64,000 bases of DNA from Microbulbifer sp. VAAF005 (GTDB lineage: Bacteria; Pseudomonadota; Gammaproteobacteria; Pseudomonadales; Cellvibrionaceae), in the NCBI RefSeq assembly GCF_030012985.1, contig NZ_CP120233.1, positions 3,328,501 to 3,392,500 of the forward strand, written 5' to 3'. The notes beneath the pieces were generated by a model. It was given only the letters and a program-made list of their open reading frames with translations, was not told the DNA's origin and did not search any database. The position numbers and the translations under genes are program-made. Below, one piece after another: positions 1,888 through 13,498 of this stretch; positions within the stretch are counted from its first letter, which is position 1, and each line of letters begins with the position of its first letter.

Positions 1888-4562
1888 ATGGACTACAGCC
1901 AAATAAACCATGAAGTACTTGAGGCCCTGGAAAATGATCACAGCCTCAATTTGGTTCGTAAGGGCACAGGTAATAAAGCCGTGCTTCGGGGAACCTGTCC
2001 CGACTGTGCCCAGAAAACAGTTTGGATCAAAGTTGATAAACCTATCGCTTTGCGTTGTGACCGTGAGGATAAATGCGGATATGAAGAAAGGGTAAGGGAT
2101 CGCTACCCGGACCTTTTCGAAAACTTCTCCAAGCGCTTTCCATCAAGCGACGAAGACCCCAAAGCTACGGCGCGAGCCTACTTATCTATTCAGCGCGGGT
2201 TTCCCGCTGCTGATATTGAAGATTGGTTTCAGCAGGGGTTTTATAAATTGCCGGATGGCTCCTGGGCGGAGACAGTACGCTTCCTTCTATTTGGAGGTGA
2301 GAAAGATTACTGGGAACGTATTGTTGATAAACAACATGTAAAAAAGGCGGGTAAAAAAGCCCGCTTTAAAACCGGCACAAGCTATGCCGGGAAGCACTGG
2401 GCACCACCTGGGCAAAAAATCAAACCCATGGAAAAAGTCTTCATTGTTGAAGGTATTTTCCACTGTATTGCGATGTACCTAAAAGGCTACAAAGCGGTTT
2501 GCGCGTTCTCCTGTTCCAATTTACCGAGAGAACTCATTAAGGAAAATAAAGGCCAGGGCATTATCTGGCACTTGGCATACGATGACGAACCCGGTGCGCG
2601 TAAGCATGTTGCTAAATACTACAAAGAACTCAAGGAGCAGAAAGAAACTGTAGAAGTCGCGCAGACCGGCAGCTGTAAAGATTGGGATGATCTTTATAGA
2701 GATGGTTTGCTTAATGATGAAACCATTGAGAACTGTGTTTGGCGTGGTCGCGTTTTTGTGGCTGAAACGCCAAAGCGTAAAGCTTATGCGCAGTATGGGT
2801 GGAAGCCATTTGGCAAAACCATCATTGAGCATAACGATAGATTACATTCTGTAAAATTCTCCCTGGAAGACTTTAACAAAGCTAGTGAGGGAGAACCCTA
2901 CAAGTGGGGCTTCTCCTGGGATGCTTTTAACCAGGCTGCCAAAGTAGAGCAAATTTCAAACTGCGTTCCTAAATTCCAGTACACGGAAATCGATCGGCTA
3001 ACTAATGAGCGTCGCTATTTTTTTGCTATCAAGAAATCGGGCACCAAGCGCAGCTACCTTGGTGCATTTACTCCCAACGCACTATCCGACCCCCGCGCCT
3101 TTGGCCTTGCTCTGCTTTCGCATACAGACGGCGGCAGCTTTGAGGGCGGAGCAGGTGATTTAAAAATTCTCAAGTCTCGCTGGCTAGACGGCGAAGTTAA
3201 CCGGGTAACTACCTTGCCGCACATGGGATTTGATGAAAATACCCGCACTTATATCTTTCCTGGTTTTGGCTATCAAAACGGCAAATTAATTACAGCCAAT
3301 GAACACGGCTTTTTACAGCAGGGTGATACCGCCATTAAAACCACCCTGGAGGGAATGCCGGTTCATCAGAGCGATAAATTTGACGGAAGCTGGTGGCCGG
3401 ATTTTGTAAAGGTATTTCACTTAAACGGTATCGCCGCTTTGGCTTACTTCACCGCCAGCCTGTTTGCCCGCCAGATCAAGGAAAAACACCAGGCGTTTCA
3501 TATTCTGGAAATTACCGGTGATCCCGATGCCGGTAAATCCACCCTAATCCGTTTTATCTGGAAATTACTGGGCCGAGACAACTACGAAGGTGTAGACCTA
3601 CTGAGTACCTCAACGTCCAGTTACGGGCGTAACTTGGGTAAGGTTAGTAACCTTCCGGTTGTGGTCATTGAGAGTGACCGAGAAACCAGCGGCGGCACAG
3701 GGGGCGCCCTGCAAAGTCCTTTGAATGGGATATTTTCAAAAAGATCACGGATTTAGATGGCGTTGTTGATTCAAGGGGGGTCAAGACCAACGACAATAAA
3801 ACCCATGACCGTATTTTCCGTGGCTCTATGGTTATCAGCCAAAATGCCACGGTTCATGCATCAGCGGCAATGCTCTCGCGTATTGTCCACCTTCACTGCA
3901 CAACCGCCCACAAGCGAACGGAAAACCGCCCTCTGGCAGATCGCCTCAAACGCGAGTCGGTAGAAAACCTGGCGGGATATCTTCACCAGGTGCTTACCCA
4001 TGAGACAGAGTGGCTATCTCACTTCTTTAACGCTTTTGAAAGCCACCGGGCAACCTTAACCACTGATGACGGTATTTCCCAAGGCCGGGTTATCGATTTC
4101 CATGCCCAACTGATGGCAGCGGTAGAAGCCCTGCAAGTCGTCCTGCCGAACTTTGATACTTCTTTAATTAACCAGGTGCAAGAACACCTGGTTGAGCGCG
4201 CACGGGACCGCCAGCGCCGTTTAAACAAGGATCATCCGATCATTGAGCAGTTCTGGGACACCTATCACTTTCTTAACGATCAAGTGGTTTATGTCGAAGA
4301 CGAGCAAGGGAAACGGCACGTAAACACTGATCGCCTGAACCACAGCATCGATCCCGCCTTAATCGCCATCAACCTCAACGAGTACATGGAACTCTGCCGC
4401 AAACGCGGACAGGAGCTGATACCCGTAGCGGAATTAAAACAGCTATTCCCCACCAGCCAGCGTTATCCATTTGCAGGTTACAAGCGGATCAGGTCGAAGC
4501 GAGAGAAGAAGGCCAGCCCCTGGTGCTGGGTATTCAAAAGAACCGGCGGAAGTGGTCGCTGA
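1888..4562 (+). pseudogene. Phage toprim primase-helicase, apparent -1 frameshift
   Basis: Replication protein of about 890 aa, read in two frames. The first frame (1888-3756) has a zinc finger (CPDC ... CDREDKCGY, residues 38-67) and a toprim core (VFIVEGIFHCIAMYLKG, later AYDDEPGARK). It then has an unassigned middle region and an SF3/DUF927-like helicase with Walker A GDPDAGKST and Walker B-like VVVIESDRE. It stops shortly after. The helicase continues in the -1 frame from about 3711 (AKSFEWDIFKKITDLDG ... FRGSMVISQNATVHAS) to 4562 with no gap in homology. The break is at the G5 run 3700-3704, where one more G would restore a single frame. Either an inactivating deletion, a sequencing error, or, less likely, frameshifting at a non-canonical site. 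Confidence 0.8.
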
Positions 4563-5982: not shown

Positions 5983-6279
5983 ATGACTGAATTATTCGCT
6001 GCCATTCGTGAAGACTCTAAATACTTTTACCAAAACCCTAAAGCTTTGCCTTTTCCCGTAAGTATTGTGAACACCACCGACGCCTACCGGGTAAAAGGCA
6101 ATGGCGATCAATACCGGCTGGAAGATGTTTATCTCTTTGTGCAATCGGGACGCAATTTTCAGCAAATCAATAAGGAAGTTACAAAGCCGTTCCCAAATTG
6201 TGGTGCCTGCCCTGGAGGCGGGACAGTATGCAAAACGGCTTGTCTGCACGCTCAGGAAAATCCCACTACAGACCTATAA
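5983..6279 (+). CDS. Phage hypothetical protein with C-terminal Cys cluster (98 aa)
   Basis: Unknown function. Residues 77-91 carry four Cys in the pattern C-x2-C-x6-C-x3-C (NCGACPGGGTVCKTACLH), followed by a His. That is a plausible zinc or iron-sulfur site. The N-terminal part is soluble and aromatic-rich (DSKYFYQNPKALPFPVSIV). Good ribosome site (AAAGGAAAAGGGG). Part of the early operon. Confidence 0.55.
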   Translation: MTELFAAIREDSKYFYQNPKALPFPVSIVNTTDAYRVKGNGDQYRLEDVYLFVQSGRNFQQINKEVTKPFPNCGACPGGGTVCKTACLHAQENPTTDL

Positions 6280-6585: not shown

Positions 6586-7600
6586 TTTTCTTCTGGAAAC
6601 TTTTTACCGGGCTTGCTGCACTAATTTTCTGTAGTACGTCTGTAGCGTTCACTATCGGTCTGTGGATTTCCATTCCCACGCCGGGGGGCCTCCCCTGGTG
6701 TGGGGGTTGTCTGCTGGCACACTGGTAGCCGGTTGTACTGCCTTCGCTTTGGAGTTGTGCAAATTTGCGTTTGCTCCCCTGGGGATATGGTTGAAGGAAA
6801 AAAAGCGCCGTATAGGTTGGGCGCTTCTGTTTATTTGGCCGATATTAGTGTTGATTAGCATTGCCGCCACCGTTGGCTTTTTGGAGAGCAACGCAACGGA
6901 ACAGAAACAGACAGCAGCAACCAATAGCGTTGAGTATCAAACCTTGAAACAACAGTTAAACAGTTATAACCAGCGAATAAACAATACCAACGAGATTGTT
7001 GCAGGTTACAAAGCGGGAAATTTCAAGAAAGTGGCACTAGAAAAAGATCAGAGGATAGATGACCTTGAGGAAAAGCGGGCTCAAATACTGGCCCAGCTGA
7101 AAGCGGTACAAGGAGACAGCACAGGGAGCGCACAGGCGGCCTTCCAGGGTTGGGCAACCCTAACCCATGTGGAGTCCGATAAACTCCAGCATGGCGCCTT
7201 TCTAGCGCTAGCGGTTATTACTGATGTTGTTGGATTACTGGCACTGCTGGCCTTTAATAGCGCGGTAACTGTTAAAAGCACCGTAACGGCAGAACAGGAC
7301 AACGCTGAACAGCAAGAACCGTTAACAGAGGATCAACAGCAAGAACAGAATCACCAGGAAGAACCCGAAAGCGGAATAGAATTAGATGAATCGTTTAGTG
7401 CAGTGCAACGGGATTTGGCAATCCGTATTGCTGGCGGTGAGTATGGACTAAATCCAGTCTTGCGGGACATCAACCGATCAGTGACCGGGGGCAATGCTGT
7501 AGTCAGGCCTGTCTTTCAGCACTTACAAAAAATAGGTGTGATAGATAAGCAGGGGCGAGGATTCGCCTTGATCAAATATGTAGATGTGGCCCCTACTTAA
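6582..7600 (+). CDS. Membrane protein with coiled coil and C-terminal winged helix; apparent -1 frameshift
   Basis: Read as one gene in two frames. GTG at 6582 has an excellent ribosome site (GGGAGGG) and gives one transmembrane helix (KLFTGLAALIFCSTSVAFTI) before a stop at 6728. The -1 frame continues with a second helix (GLSAGTLVAGCTAFALELCK), a third (WALLFIWPILVLISIAATVG), a coiled coil and a fourth helix (FLALAVITDVVGLLALLAFN). A Gln/Glu linker and a soluble domain resembling a winged helix end the protein (QRDLAIRIAGGEYGLNPVLR to IGVIDKQGRGFALIK). The switch falls in G6 at 6683-6688, inside G GGG GGC. The 312-codon frame alone would start at GTG 6662, without a clear ribosome site. Function unknown. 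Confidence 0.55.
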
Positions 7601-8426: not shown

Positions 8427-8681
8427 TTAGCTGGCTATTTGTGCCTGATTGACCAAGGCCTGGCGCTCAGAAGTTGAAAGGCCGCGCAGGTAATCCAAGG
8501 CCGTCTCTCTTACTTGCAACTGTGAAGGGGCGATTGAATGGCTATAGGTTAATTTTGCTACGAAGTAATGCCGACACTCTGGATTAGTGCAAGTGCAATA
8601 GAGATCAACCACCTTTGGGTCAATTTCATTTCGGCTATTTATTAGCGCCTTATGCCCGCACGTCTCACATTTAACCCGCAT
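8427..8681 (-). CDS. ogr: Ogr/Delta-like late transcription activator
   Basis: Zinc-finger activator of phage late promoters (P2 Ogr, P4 Delta family), 84 aa against 72 in P2. The four zinc ligands are visible as C-x2-C (CETCGHKA, residues 5-8) and C-x4-C (CTNPECRHYFV), with the family ending FVAKLTYSHSIAPS. I placed the start at 8681 (MRVKCETCG), which has GAGGGG nine bases upstream and matches how Ogr proteins begin. The frame is open to 8762 and overlaps the portal gene there. It should switch on the rightward and leftward structural operons. HP1/K139-type phages also keep it beside the portal gene. Confidence 0.85.
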   Translation of the reverse strand: MRVKCETCGHKALINSRNEIDPKVVDLYCTCTNPECRHYFVAKLTYSHSIAPSQLQVRETALDYLRGLSTSERQALVNQAQIAS

Positions 8682-8745
8682 TATCGTATTCCCCTCAGCC
8701 GTAAGGGGAAATCTTATCACTTTGTTATCCCCTAGGGGGTAATTA

Positions 8746-9801
8746 TTATCCATTAAGGGCAAACTCTGGTTTAGTGAATTCTATGCGCTTATTCCTGGGA
8801 AGCCACTCATTCAACTGCAAAAAAACGTCTTGCATAGGCACAACCTCATTCTCAAAATAAACGCGGGTAATCTTCTCTATATCACCAAACCCCCCGCTAT
8901 TTTCCGGCATGACTCCAGCCAGCGCGGGCTGAATTCGCCACATGCTTAGAATATCGTTCCGCGTTAGGTTCTTGATTCGCTCGAATTCGTCTTTGGTGGC
9001 AATGTCACCCACGGGAATAATCTGAACACTCTTCTCTTTGCCGTTGGGAATATTCAGGAACATTGAACGGAAGTTGCCCACCCCTTTACTACTCTTTATT
9101 TGCTCCTTGATAGCCGCCTCATCCTCTGGGCTAAGGTGTGCGTCTGCGGTGTAGAATATATACCCCATATGGGCTCCGTTGTTGTAATAGCGGCGCCTGA
9201 AGAGTGTGCTGTCTTCATTTAGCAAAACTGATTGAACGCCGCCTAAATATTGTGGCCTACCGTAGATTTGCTGTGCGGGGTCGTACTCCTTCAGCTGTAC
9301 AACCTCCCCAGGCTCATAGACGACCGGGTCAGCGCCATTTGGCTGCAACATGCAAAAGCGGTCAGACTCTTTCATTCTTCGCATATTGACCCCCGGCAAA
9401 TGCTCCAAACGCAGAAGATGGCCAAAGGCGTTGTACTTTTTCTTGAAATAGCAGTGCCCTAAAACCTCATTATCAAACCCGGCTTTTGCTAGGCATTCTG
9501 TGCGAACCCCGCCCCCTGGTTTGAACCACTTGCGCAACTGGTTGCGCTTAAAGTAGGGGATAGTTCCATGATGGGCATTGGCACCTAGAAGATTGATCAA
9601 CCCGGTTTGGCTTACAGGGGGCACGTAGTAGTCACCACCAGGCTGTAAGAATGTACCGAGGTAATCCCCCAGATTCCCATTTAGGACCGGCTCAGGATCA
9701 CCAAAGCTAAACATTGTGGGGCCGTTATCTACGGGGGTTGCCTTCATGCTCTCAGAACTGGCTTTTGCCTTTGCTTTAAAGCGGTTTCTCTTGCGTCCCA
9801 T
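8746..9801 (-). CDS. Portal protein (P2 gpQ, PBSX family)
   Basis: Portal of the capsid vertex through which DNA is packaged. At 351 aa it is close to P2 gpQ (344). Family features include YYVPPVSQTGLINLLGANAH, the stretch GRPQYLGGVQSVLLNEDSTL followed by FRRRYYNNGAHMGYI, and DILSMWRIQPALAGVMPEN with a glycine-rich turn. The Lys/Arg-rich N-terminus is normal. It reads leftward downstream of the terminase, as in P2, but here a shortened terminase copy lies between them. Confidence 0.95.
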   Translation of the reverse strand: MGRKRNRFKAKAKASSESMKATPVDNGPTMFSFGDPEPVLNGNLGDYLGTFLQPGGDYYVPPVSQTGLINLLGANAHHGTIPYFKRNQLRKWFKPGGGVRTECLAKAGFDNEVLGHCYFKKKYNAFGHLLRLEHLPGVNMRRMKESDRFCMLQPNGADPVVYEPGEVVQLKEYDPAQQIYGRPQYLGGVQSVLLNEDSTLFRRRYYNNGAHMGYIFYTADAHLSPEDEAAIKEQIKSSKGVGNFRSMFLNIPNGKEKSVQIIPVGDIATKDEFERIKNLTRNDILSMWRIQPALAGVMPENSGGFGDIEKITRVYFENEVVPMQDVFLQLNEWLPRNKRIEFTKPEFALNG

Positions 9802-9817
9802 TAATTACTCTCTCTAG

Positions 9818-9912
9818 CTGGCAAGTGCCACAGTGGTTTTACGTTGGTTTCGGTTTAGGGGTTAATTGCTAAGGGCGTGCATAAGTGCCCAGGACACATC
9901 CGCGTGGCCAGT
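9818..9912 (-). repeat. Duplicate of the terminase gene 3' end
   Basis: About 95 bp nearly identical to 10693-10787, at a constant offset of 875 bp. The top strand of both begins CTGGCAAGTGCCACAGTGG. The 10693 copy codes for the terminase C-terminus (GHADVAWAIMHALSN onward). This copy retains the same coding potential (GHADVSWALMHALSN) but is out of frame with, and past the stop of, the gene at 9923. It marks the downstream edge of a terminase duplication. Confidence 0.85.
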
Positions 9913-9922
9913 GGCGCAATAT

Positions 9923-10675
9923 TTAATTGAAGCAACACATAAAAAATCTATTAAATTCAGCTTGACTGTATTCATTGCGAAGACTGGCAATATCGAATAA
10001 ATCAGAGCCTTGCTCTATGGCATCCTTTACCGTGACAACATTTCGCCAGATATTATCTAGTCCAACTTGTCCATACTTAATAATTTTATGGTCAATATTT
10101 ACTAAATCTTTACCCTTGTTTTTCCGGTTGTAATGCTCACCGTTCCATATCAAGTAAGCGGGGTGATTCTCTACTGAAAGGCTAGAAAAATAAGTTTTAC
10201 GATGTATTTTCTTGGCTGCCATTCCAGAAGCAATTATGTTTATAGTTTCAAAGGTCGTCATCCAAAATGGTTCATTTATATAAACATTGCCGTCGTGGCT
10301 TGCGGTTAAGCTATCTGGTGTCCAAAAAATCAGTAATGCCCCGTTAGATAACTCAATAATCTCATCACCTTTTAGTTCAATATCAAAGTACTGCTTTGCA
10401 AATTGCAAAATATACATAAGATATATTTCGCACTCTCCATTGCTGGAGCAGAGAAATATTTGATTGCTGCCTGTAATTATGGCGTCTTCAAGTGCTTCCC
10501 AAGCAAAGTAGTAAGTTGTGCCGATTTGTCGTGACTTAAGAATGAATCGCGTTCGCTCGCCTTTGTGGTCATGCCAGCGGTGCTGATAGCTGTAGAATAA
10601 TTCTTTGCGGATCTCTTCCAGCTGTTCCGCTGTGATATCACTAATATCATTCTTTAGAGTTTTTCTTATTGTCAT
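9923..10675 (-). CDS. Truncated, diverged duplicate of the terminase ATPase domain
   Basis: A 250-aa protein aligned with residues about 130-385 of the adjacent terminase, from NDISDITAEQLEEIRKELFY to the end of the ATPase domain (NRFFMCCFN). Then it stops. The nuclease domain is absent and the N-terminal HTH part is gone. The Walker A region is kept (LKSRQIGTTYYFAWEA) but Walker B IDEVFW has become INEPFW. It has its own ATG and a GGAG thirteen bases upstream, right after the terminase stop, so it may be translated. Divergence is spread along the length, so the copy is not recent. Could be a relic or a protein that pairs with the real terminase. Confidence 0.75.
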   Translation of the reverse strand: MTIRKTLKNDISDITAEQLEEIRKELFYSYQHRWHDHKGERTRFILKSRQIGTTYYFAWEALEDAIITGSNQIFLCSSNGECEIYLMYILQFAKQYFDIELKGDEIIELSNGALLIFWTPDSLTASHDGNVYINEPFWMTTFETINIIASGMAAKKIHRKTYFSSLSVENHPAYLIWNGEHYNRKNKGKDLVNIDHKIIKYGQVGLDNIWRNVVTVKDAIEQGSDLFDIASLRNEYSQAEFNRFFMCCFN

Positions 10676-10688
10676 GGATTAATACTCC

Positions 10689-12431
10689 TCAACTGGCAAG
10701 TGCCACAGTGGTTTTACGTTGGTTTCGGTTTAGGGGTTCATTGCTAAGGGCGTGCATAATTGCCCAGGCCACGTCCGCGTGTCCGGTAGTACTGGTGCGG
10801 TTTGCGGCATAGGTGATTTGGTCGTTGCCGGTAGTGACCTGGTGAATCTGCAAAAACGCTTGGGGTATGTCGGTGTGTTCCGCGTCCCATTCGACGCGAC
10901 GGGACTCAATAACGTCTTGCGCTTTGAGCACCAGGTTTGTTTTTGTATTGATGCCGTAAGTAATTGGCGTTACCCGTGGGAAGAAGTCTTTGACCATCTC
11001 ATAAACCCCATTGCCCGGCCCGGTACAATCAATGCCGATAAACTGGGTATTATATTTTTCTGTCAGTTCTTTAATTCGGTTTGCTTGCCACTGCCAGGCG
11101 CGGTTGCGCATAACAATTTTTTCTAAAACCCGGAATTTACCACCAGGTTTAAGCGGCGGAGCAATAACAACGACTGCGGCACCGTCGCCACTACGGGAGG
11201 GGTCATAACCAATCCATACCGGAAGATTGCCATAAGGCCGAACTTCGCGCTTTTTAAAATCGACCCAGGTGACATTGGTATCAATCGAGCAACTAAGCAG
11301 ATCATCTAATTTAAATACTGATAAGCCCGCCTCCATAAAGGCGCACATAAATAAGTTATTAAATTCAGAATCGCTGTATTCGTCCTTAAGTTCTTCGATA
11401 TTGAAAAGGTCACAGCCTTGTTCCTCGGCATCCTTGACGGTGACGATGTTTCGCCAGATGCGATCCTTTCCTTTTTGCCCAGTCTTCAGGGTTTCCCGTG
11501 TAAGATCGAATTCAACTTTATTTACTCTTTTTTCGTTGTACTTCTCACCACTCCATAGCGGGTAGGCGCCGTGACTTTTTACTGACGGCGTAGAGAAATA
11601 GGTTTTACGCCATTTCTTTTGAGAAGCCATCGCACTAGCCAGCTTGTTCAGGTTCTCAAAATCGGGTATCCAAAAGACTTCATCAATATAGAGATGACCG
11701 TGATAGCTCTGGGCGGTGCGCCCGTTGGTCGATACAAAGCGCAATTCAGCTCCATTCGAAAGCTGAATAAAGTCAGCGCCTTTAAGCTCAATATCAAAAT
11801 ACTTGCTGGCGAATAAAAGAATGTAAGCCTTAAATACTTCTGCTTGACTGCGGCTGGCGGAAAGGAATATCTGATTGTCACCTGTGATTATGGCGTCTTC
11901 TAACGCTTCCCAGGCAAAGTAATATGTGGCGCCTATCTGACGTGATTTGAGTATAAAGCGAGTGCGCTCGCCCTTATGGTCGTGCCAGCGGTGCTGGTAG
12001 CCGTAGAATAATTCTTTGCGAATTTCTTCCAGCTGTTCCGCTGTGACTTCACTAATATCATTTTTAGGCTTTTTCTTTTTGCCTTTACTTTCCCCGCGTT
12101 CTCCACGGGAAGCCGCCGCCTTCTCTTTAGCTGCCCTCGCCTTTTTCAATTCAATCCCGGCCAGCTTATCCAGCAGATTTGCAAGGCGGTCTATTTCTGT
12201 GAAGTCCTCCTTTGTTTTGTTGGGCTTCTCCACTAAAGCAATAAGCTGGCGTGAGGTGGCTTGCTCAACAGTTTCATGTTGAAGCATGTCTTCCCAGTGG
12301 CCTTTCTCCGCCCACTGGTAAACCACTCGAACGCTGTTCAAGTTTAATTGGTCCGCTATCTCTCGCGCGCTCACTCTGCGCAACCACATCAATTTAGCGG
12401 CGGTTTTGATTTCGTCTGAATATGTAGCCAT
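10689..12431 (-). CDS. Terminase large subunit (P2 gpP)
   Basis: DNA-packaging ATPase and nuclease, 580 aa. It has an N-terminal HTH (SAREIADQLNLNSVRVVYQW), an ATPase domain with LKSRQIGATYYFAWEA and Walker B YIDEVFW, then a nuclease domain with IGYDPSRSGDGAAVVV and FIGIDCTGPGNGVYE. I start it at ATG 12431 (MATYSDEIK). An in-frame TTG at 12449 is less likely. Leftward and divergent from the scaffold gene, as in P2. The end is repeated 875 bp downstream. Confidence 0.95.
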   Translation of the reverse strand: MATYSDEIKTAAKLMWLRRVSAREIADQLNLNSVRVVYQWAEKGHWEDMLQHETVEQATSRQLIALVEKPNKTKEDFTEIDRLANLLDKLAGIELKKARAAKEKAAASRGERGESKGKKKKPKNDISEVTAEQLEEIRKELFYGYQHRWHDHKGERTRFILKSRQIGATYYFAWEALEDAIITGDNQIFLSASRSQAEVFKAYILLFASKYFDIELKGADFIQLSNGAELRFVSTNGRTAQSYHGHLYIDEVFWIPDFENLNKLASAMASQKKWRKTYFSTPSVKSHGAYPLWSGEKYNEKRVNKVEFDLTRETLKTGQKGKDRIWRNIVTVKDAEEQGCDLFNIEELKDEYSDSEFNNLFMCAFMEAGLSVFKLDDLLSCSIDTNVTWVDFKKREVRPYGNLPVWIGYDPSRSGDGAAVVVIAPPLKPGGKFRVLEKIVMRNRAWQWQANRIKELTEKYNTQFIGIDCTGPGNGVYEMVKDFFPRVTPITYGINTKTNLVLKAQDVIESRRVEWDAEHTDIPQAFLQIHQVTTGNDQITYAANRTSTTGHADVAWAIMHALSNEPLNRNQRKTTVALAS

Positions 12432-12474
12432 GCCGCGGAGTGTACGCAACGAAATTAATATTTTTGCCCGGTTT

Positions 12475-12521
12475 AATTCCTAAGAATTCCGATTTTCCAA
12501 AAATAGGAATTTTTAGGAATT
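12475..12521. promoter_or_regulatory. 16-bp inverted repeat in the divergent late promoter region
   Basis: AATTCCTAAGAATTCC (12475-12490) is matched by GGAATTTTTAGGAATT (12506-12521) with one mismatch. The gap is 15 bp. It lies between the leftward terminase and rightward scaffold genes, where P2 has Ogr-activated late promoters. A second pair, TGTGCCG (12537-12543) and CGGCACA (12572-12578), lies nearby. Ogr-type or repressor binding is an inference. Confidence 0.45.
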
Positions 12522-12622
12522 TATTGAATTGTGAGGTGTGCCGACTACCTATAAATTTCAAATTCTCGGCGCGGCACAGACCGCAAAGTGAAATCAATCT
12601 TTCAATAGTGTGTAGGCGAACA

Positions 12623-13498
12623 ATGGCAAGAAATCTGAAAACCGGCTGGGTGGTATTGGCTACTAGTGGATCAGTTGTGCATGGTCTTGATGATGGTCGA
12701 ACCATAGAAAAGCAGTGGTTGTTAGATATGGCGGAAACCTACAACACAAAAATACACACCGCCAGAATCTGGCCAGACCATCAGCGCTACTGGAACGGCG
12801 GCAAAGTATTAGCTTTAAAAACAGAGGAAGCCAAAGAACCAGAACTAAAAGGGGAAATCCAGCTTTACGGGATCATGGCGCCTAATGATTCTTTGATAAG
12901 CGCAAACCGTCGCGGCGACTATACACACCCATCTATTGAAGTTGGCGAGGACTACCGAGGTACAGGCAAGTTCTTTTTAAGAGGTCTGGGCGTAACCGAT
13001 GATCCAGCTAGTGCAGGAGTTTCAGAACTTCACTTTTCGGCCAAGTCTGGTGAGCAGAAAACAGCACTGATATTTCCCGGCCATCAAATCAATGTGGCTG
13101 AATCTCTCCAGGAAGAAAAGGGCCTTTTCTCAAAAATCTTCAATAAAGAGATACAGCAGGAAAAATACGAAACTCAGCAACAGGAAAATAACAGCATGGC
13201 TTTTGATGACGCTCAGAAAAGTGAACTTAGAGAAATCATCTCAACTGAAATAAAAAATGCTTTTTCAACCCAATCGGCAGGTAGTCAGGGCGACGCTAAA
13301 CCAAAAGGCGGTGAGGGTGATGAAGGGGGAGCCCCTGAAAGTGATAGCGAAGAAACCGTGCCAATGAAGAAGTTCAAGAAACTGGAAGGTGAGCTTGAAG
13401 ACCTGAAAACACAATTTGCGGCAGCGCTCAATCAAGAGAAGCCGGGCACGCAGGCCCCTGAAGGTACAGGCGGCGCAGAATCTAAGCGTGTTCTGTAG
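12623..13498 (+). CDS. Capsid scaffolding protein/protease (P2 gpO)
   Basis: A 291-aa scaffold with an N-terminal protease domain, near P2 gpO (284). The protease part covers residues 1-150 (KTGWVVLATSGSVVHGLDDG, WPDHQRYWNGGKV, RGLGVTDDPASAGVSELHFS). A linker leads to an acidic, helical scaffold region (MAFDDAQKSELREIISTEIK, then MKKFKKLEGELEDLKTQF). Start ATG at 12623. The frame is open upstream to 12440 but without a ribosome site. First gene of the rightward capsid operon. An internal ATG at 13196 has AGGA ten bases upstream and could give a scaffold-only product. Confidence 0.9.
   Translation: MARNLKTGWVVLATSGSVVHGLDDGRTIEKQWLLDMAETYNTKIHTARIWPDHQRYWNGGKVLALKTEEAKEPELKGEIQLYGIMAPNDSLISANRRGDYTHPSIEVGEDYRGTGKFFLRGLGVTDDPASAGVSELHFSAKSGEQKTALIFPGHQINVAESLQEEKGLFSKIFNKEIQQEKYETQQQENNSMAFDDAQKSELREIISTEIKNAFSTQSAGSQGDAKPKGGEGDEGGAPESDSEETVPMKKFKKLEGELEDLKTQFAAALNQEKPGTQAPEGTGGAESKRVL

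Follow-up and report, generated by a model that had tools for sequence, protein, structure and literature searches.

A stand-alone terminase ATPase-domain gene between large terminase and portal in a Microbulbifer prophage, and genes of the same kind in other phages

In a window of 64,000 nucleotides from the chromosome of Microbulbifer sp. VAAF005, we found a prophage in which a short gene for a stand-alone ATPase domain of the large terminase (TerL), without the HTH and nuclease domains, lies between the genes for full-length TerL and the portal protein. Genes of the same kind occupy this place in several other phages. Sequence comparison points to four origins of these ATPase-only copies, probably five, and such a number of origins at the same place, together with an overlapping loss of residues, is strong evidence that the gene is of use to the phage. 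Given several gains, selection and parallel residue loss, the copy appears to be a functional component and not junk. The question would bear on the regulation of packaging motors or on conflicts over them, and it is directly testable with near-identical pairs with and without the copy (phiO18P and A051; the window prophage and its sibling) and with coliphage 186. It also means that some genes annotated as 'terminase large subunit' are not full terminases.

The short gene (9923..10675, minus strand) starts with ATG and codes for 250 amino acids. It follows the gene for a full-length, gpP-like large terminase of the P2 type (10689..12431, minus strand) after a gap of 13 bases, its GAGGAG Shine-Dalgarno sequence, as read from the sequence, overlapping the stop codon of TerL. 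TerL residues are numbered here from the ATG at 12431 (580 aa); a version starting at TTG has 586 aa. A stretch of 121 bases separates the short gene from the gene for a gpQ-like portal protein (8746..9801, minus strand), next to which an Ogr/Delta-like zinc-finger protein, a late activator by family, is encoded (8427..8762, minus strand). The gpO-like capsid scaffold/protease gene (12440..13498, plus strand) is divergent from TerL, and the neighbourhood of portal and scaffold genes is a P2-like arrangement. The G+C content of the short gene is 37.6%, compared to 47.5% for TerL, and a scan for promoters and terminators gave no excess over shuffled sequences. Elsewhere in the window, two open frames on the plus strand (1888-3756 and 3828-4562) match the same DNA primase profile, phrog_1139 (895 positions), covering its positions 3-610 and 650-889; with a replication gene in two frames, the prophage may be defective or its primase gene split.

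The preliminary description, made from the sequence alone, had recognised a second, shortened terminase ATPase gene between TerL and portal, and our analysis bears this out. BLASTP aligned the short gene with the neighbouring TerL at 153 of 242 identical residues (63%; E 2e-109), and 514 of 747 positions (69%) are identical at the DNA level. The TerL part covered is approximately 124-365, or 130-371 in the 586-aa numbering, in which the range of 130-385 proposed originally extends too far. Pfam detected Terminase_5, Terminase_6N and Terminase_6C in TerL and only Terminase_6N (E 1.2e-27), i.e. an ATPase domain, in the short gene; neither Terminase_5 (N-terminal HTH) nor Terminase_6C (C-terminal nuclease) gave a Pfam match there, and the frame stops at the end of the ATPase domain. 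The best PHROG of the short gene is 3746, 'terminase large subunit' (374 positions; E 9.6e-77), as it is for five other copies scanned; this profile extends to the ATPase region of full-length TerL as well, and its name hides the ATPase-only paralogues. Full-length gpP of the P2 type thus shares the ATPase domain, Terminase_6N and PHROG 3746 with the window gene, unlike which it has an HTH, an RNase-H-like nuclease and all near-invariant residues. In structure prediction, the window copy was modelled as a complete ATPase domain (pLDDT 94, pTM 0.91; 66 alignment rows). The TerL model was weaker (pLDDT 82, pTM 0.51), with helices up to residue 107 or so, a low-confidence linker, the ATPase domain at about 122-365 and the nuclease at about 375-565, boundaries that were read by eye. 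The copy comprises only the middle part of TerL, its ends coinciding, as read from the TerL model, with those of the ATPase domain. Sequence searches of the PDB found no ATPase of a P2-type TerL.

To define which residues had been lost, we used 106 TerL ATPase domains as reference, 70 of which come from one search, and obtained 71 domain columns that are at least 97% invariant. Of these, 13 are changed in the window copy, 9 in the Pseudomonas-type copy P0010, 17 in the Vibrio, 13 in the Aeromonas and 15 in the W group. All five groups have changes at T235 and Q241, gaps being counted as changes (T235 in Vibrio; Q241 in the window, 186-type and Yersinia copies); S191, A192, Q196, N236 and P282 are changed in four groups and F200, A240 and T281 in three. 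Random placement of equal numbers of changes matched the observed sharing by at least three, at least four and at least five groups in 7, 0 and 6 of 50,000 trials, respectively, while an earlier test with four groups had found sharing by at least two groups not unusual (0.27). The column test indicates clustering and not its cause, since the TerL set is biased towards one search, columns are unequally free to vary and gaps were counted. P282 is proline in 106 of 106 TerLs and leucine or valine in the window, P0010, Vibrio and Aeromonas copies. It stays proline in the 186-type and Yersinia W proteins, and P0010 keeps S191, A192 and Q196, both of which count against the motor-accessory reading proposed below. 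In the window gene, the STPS of TerL, containing the STP motif that we take to be the C-motif, became SSLS (10175..10186, minus strand), and Walker B changed from IDEVFW to INEPFW, as noted originally, with an Asp to Asn exchange (codon 10274..10276, minus strand); the coordinates and other motif readings of that time hold as well. R158, K162 and G167 are kept in all copies of the motif counts (23 of 25, leaving aside P0003 and P0105). In the TerL model, the lost residues follow strands 187-191, 229-234 and 276-280, beside the Walker B strand 246-250, and are thus predicted to lie at the catalytic edge of the sheet. In terminases generally, this edge couples ATP to DNA movement.

A protein search with the short gene returned 33 hits, some others of which end at the same FMCxF point. 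Among these 33, we recognised P0003, P0010, P0011 and P0014 as complete ATPase-only proteins (40-46% identical; own entry aside), as well as fragments such as P0012 (167 aa, 63% identical over half of the query), and no orthologue of the short gene; a scan of viral contigs with the short gene as query gave no match. P0003 (286 aa), which has a Cys-rich insert in the ATPase region, and P0105 (283 aa) are further ATPase-only TerL proteins, and both keep STPS. The order TerL, short gene, portal was found in every one of the 7 viral contigs that P0014 matched (Aeromonas-type by tree), in Aeromonas phage phiO18P, in a viral contig called Pseudomonas-type for the likeness of P0010 to TerLs of Pseudomonas and Stenotrophomonas phages, and in coliphage 186 (gene W), PSP3, Midge and two Yersinia phages. 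Of two further loci, one, in Aeromonas enteropelogenes, has it, as has one of another five, a Vibrio-type viral contig (L108; labelled by the source names of P0065 and P0082 and by tree); the remaining loci hold full TerL only. Among 75 genomes of the Aeromonas family, 24 match and 2 have a short open frame of 260-264 codons, a count that leaves out four other open frames of 191-426 codons. In an annotated phage collection, 333 records match; identity and place indicate a W- or phiO18P-type copy in at least 18 of them (at least 10 distinct phages), and in 6 of those 10 the copy was inspected (phiO18P, 186, 201.16, PSP3, 56.17 and Midge). In 186 and other lineages, the copy overlaps its neighbours or sits within a few bases of them. 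In several phage records, the W-type gene is annotated as a second TerL.

Some of these genes are individually known. The record of 186 (U32222) lists W as 'similar to Orf12' and places it, together with TerL and portal, in a late operon that depends on B, and PSP3 gp2 is annotated as 'similar to 186 W; similar to orf3'. W (248 aa) is, like the window gene, an ATPase-only TerL paralogue between TerL and portal, and both 186 W and PSP3 gp2 are without HTH or nuclease domain and have lost T235 and Q241. Unlike the window gene with its 63%, however, 186 W is only 37% identical to its own TerL, keeps the C-motif proline and the Asp-Glu of Walker B, where the window gene keeps neither proline nor Asp, and is of separate origin. 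Walker B reads Asp-Asp in the PSP3 copy and Gly-Glu in the Yersinia copies. Lettered genes of 186 are defined by amber mutants, and from this W is presumably essential. In phiO18P, the CDS phiO18_21, a 'truncated terminase ATPase subunit' (DQ674738), corresponds to the window gene in order and ends and also alters STPS (to STLS); it differs in Walker A, where KSRQIGAT became KAHQIGMS, in 4-bp overlaps on both sides, and in its separate position in the trees and in the all-copies AU tests. Among the papers listed in searches of a literature short of subscription papers on 186 and phiO18P, we recognised none dealing with recurrent ATPase-only TerL paralogues. The individual genes of 186 and phiO18P are therefore already known, the kind of gene from 186 W, and their recurrence may have been published already; the independent recurrence, the shared residue loss and the cassette behaviour were not met with among the papers listed.

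Across pairs with dS above 0.1, dN/dS of the copies ranges from 0.13 to 0.28. Aeromonas copies gave an omega of 0.13-0.18 in pairs with dS above 0.3, compared to 0.03-0.12 for their TerL, whereas 186-type W gave 0.14-0.19 and the Yersinia pair 0.28, compared to 0.02-0.06 for TerL of the same pairs; comparisons between 186-type and Yersinia W are saturated. Within one Aeromonas-type set (L092-L096), copy pairs have a dS of 0-0.075, their omega being 0.21-0.83 or undefined due to few changes, below the dS of 0.08-0.28 for TerL. From this contrast, the Aeromonas-type cassette seems to travel by recombination. The presence of the copy also differs between close relatives: phiO18P and A051, which lacks it, are 98.5% identical in TerL, 97.0% in portal and 97.1% in TerS, the insertion in phiO18P being flush at an ATGA overlap that A051 uses directly, and P2 has no W, although the TerLs of P2 and 186 are 88% identical.

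But, what would such a protein do? Regulator, decoy and defence, the roles suggested at first, are all hypothetical. With roughly even confidence, we propose that the short gene is a W-type late accessory of the packaging motor, an uncoupled TerL ATPase fold that works at TerL or at the portal. Gene order and the example of 186 suggest that it would be made late, together with TerL and portal, a position that speaks against a function in the resting lysogen. The protein is predicted to fold as a complete TerL ATPase domain without HTH and nuclease and probably still binds nucleotide, as judged from the conserved P-loop residues Lys162 and Gly167, while the loss of near-invariant residues at the catalytic edge and in the coupling (C) motif may uncouple it from DNA translocation. 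As a paralogue that does not translocate DNA, it would then most likely attach to the ring of TerL or to the portal and tune assembly, initiation or termination of the motor. Operon position, the kept fold and P-loop, and the missing edge residues, HTH and nuclease all fit a paralogue of this kind. The motor does not need the copy everywhere, as indicated by the phiO18P/A051 pair and by the two closest prophages without it, and since P2, A051 and the sibling lack it, it should either be a weapon or serve some phages as an accessory that they need or benefit from. The pattern TGT-N12-ACA, presumably the half-site of late activators, occurs in none of five regions scanned; as these include P2 and 186, the scan is uninformative. 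The copy need not be inactive, and catalysis is possible, since the isolated TerL ATPase domain of phage D6E is very active: removal of the nuclease domain raised its kcat about 60-fold (PMC5727402). In a bolder version, which we regard as doubtful, P2-like phages would have repeatedly evolved a two-gene motor, in which a separate, non-translocating ATPase subunit joins TerL in the ring or caps the portal as a regulatory part of a hetero-oligomer. Phage motors have been described as rings of identical subunits (PMC9410871), and a special role is attributed to one of the five subunits in phi29 (review PMC7617512); if the two-gene motor were true, such a special role would be carried by a gene of its own.

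A weapon is an unlikely alternative to the accessory: the copy would mix into the motors of rival phages or satellites and poison them, the cognate TerL being tolerant, and would be exchanged like a moron. The presence or absence among near-identical phages, the recombination that the L092-L096 contrast suggests, the faster evolution of the copy compared to TerL and the loss of motor residues are all in line with such interference, and a prophage-encoded blocker of assembly, Tab, is known, which acts on tails (PMC10884400). However, a gene in the TerL-portal operon, late in 186, would be made mainly while the phage packages its own DNA, whereas Tab is expressed constitutively from the prophage according to the same source, and PADLOC profiles of anti-phage defence proteins gave no hits for 5 of 5 copies scanned. 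Improbable, by comparison, is an immune decoy that occupies TerL-recognising bacterial sensors without triggering them. The targets recognised by Avs1-4 are TerL, portal or a different phage protein, TerL being a known trigger of Avs proteins (PMC12931631), and the patchy presence of the copy as well as a fold and P-loop that appear to be kept while motor residues are lost would suit a decoy; but the operon of the copy also encodes full TerL, immediately upstream.

In ATPase-domain trees, each copy falls together with TerLs from its own kind of phage: Aeromonas copies adjoin Aeromonas TerLs, Vibrio copies fall inside K139-like TerLs, P0010 inside Pseudomonas-type TerLs, and the window copy joins the TerLs of its genus. 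The root of the 186/Yersinia W clade is unsure because of its deep position on a long branch, and long branches stay a caution for all origin trees. AU tests rejected a single clade of all copies, these being defined by domain content (p 2.6e-7 with 13 rows, 2.1e-6 with 18 rows). For a selection of pairs, chosen after the first tree, they rejected Vibrio with Aeromonas (p 0.0033), window with Vibrio (p 3.7e-66 as printed), window with P0010 (p 1.4e-4) and window with W (p 3.7e-5), so that there is no common descent with 186 W, and did not reject window with P0003 (p 0.487). P0003 and P0105 were left out of the later ATPase-domain tree and of the post-P-loop tree. A single ancient copy is rejected by these tests and has no support from the truncated-domain tree. 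One ancient copy that was repeatedly overwritten by the neighbouring TerL could nevertheless mimic independent origin, and the copy does adjoin TerL and is most TerL-like at its residues 9-75, where just 5 positions differ. Such gene conversion is very improbable, since a tree of the part after the P-loop alone agrees in its placements (47 of 52 rows; 5 were not cut by rule) and whole-domain AU tests reject shared clades.

How did the short gene reach this locus? Between it and the portal gene lies a relic of the TerL 3' end (9806..9912), which matches 10683..10787 (minus strand) at 98 of 107 positions (92%); the preliminary description had found this copy, though its 9818-9912 was slightly too short. 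A second P2-like prophage on the same chromosome (one contig, 5.4 Mb), 97.7% identical in TerL and 96.3% in portal, runs from TerL directly into portal and thus has an empty site, as has a prophage of genome G004 (TerL 96.6% identical); these two are the closest prophages seen. The leader after the relic is identical to the leaders of both, and relic and leader together resemble a former junction of TerL and portal. In a comparison of 96 bases, the relic differs at 12 from the present TerL and at 9 from G004, siding with G004 against the present TerL at 5 positions and the reverse at 2. With the relic 92% but the gene 69% identical to TerL, and the closest prophages lacking the gene, the gene must have entered as a cassette that had diverged beforehand; recombination at the TerL 3' end would be the simplest route. 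An old duplication that lost the nuclease, as first proposed, therefore remains valid for this kind of gene, which lost the HTH too, and not for this locus. Local duplication is disfavoured by the empty site of the sibling, the mismatch in divergence between relic and gene, and selection. The Vibrio-type short gene in L108 is flanked by a 36-base direct repeat (5994-6029 and 6760-6795, 34 of 36 identical), consisting of the TerL end and the following start and parallel to the relic in the window; a comparable flanking repeat was not found in the other five loci tested.

A decaying relic of TerL duplication or recombination is the least probable reading and already disfavoured. The closest prophages lack the gene, and this lineage was seen once: among 37 genomes of the genus (own included), 5 match and only the own genome has the short open frame, as is the case for the short gene in a class-wide sample with 8 matches in 369 genomes. 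At sites where four outgroups agree, 43 amino acids are changed in the copy only and 4 in TerL only, and one block of 30 codons has an omega of 0.95 as well as low G+C. Against decay stand the selection and repeated origin in other phages, codons 31-60, which differ at 1 amino acid with saturated synonymous sites (pS 0.92), and a frame that stayed open after near-saturating synonymous change. Compared to its own TerL, the copy has a dN of 0.286, a dS of about 1.9 and an omega of about 0.15, a rough value with synonymous sites near saturation, and neutral simulation with substitutions only and no indels left the frame intact in 30, 1, 0 and 0 of 4000 runs at 0.2, 0.35, 0.5 and 1.0 substitutions per site. 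The short gene is thus constrained, as supposed originally and as the purifying selection on its counterparts also suggests, yet faster-evolving than TerL. The preliminary description would have called it a mere relic if related prophages lacked it and selection were absent; they do lack it, yet selection is visible and less related phages carry equivalents, and a mere relic is therefore not supported. In the sibling prophage, the scaffold gene matches in two adjacent open stretches (1729-1917 and 1918-2796 of L003), and with its match divided in this way the sibling itself may not be intact.
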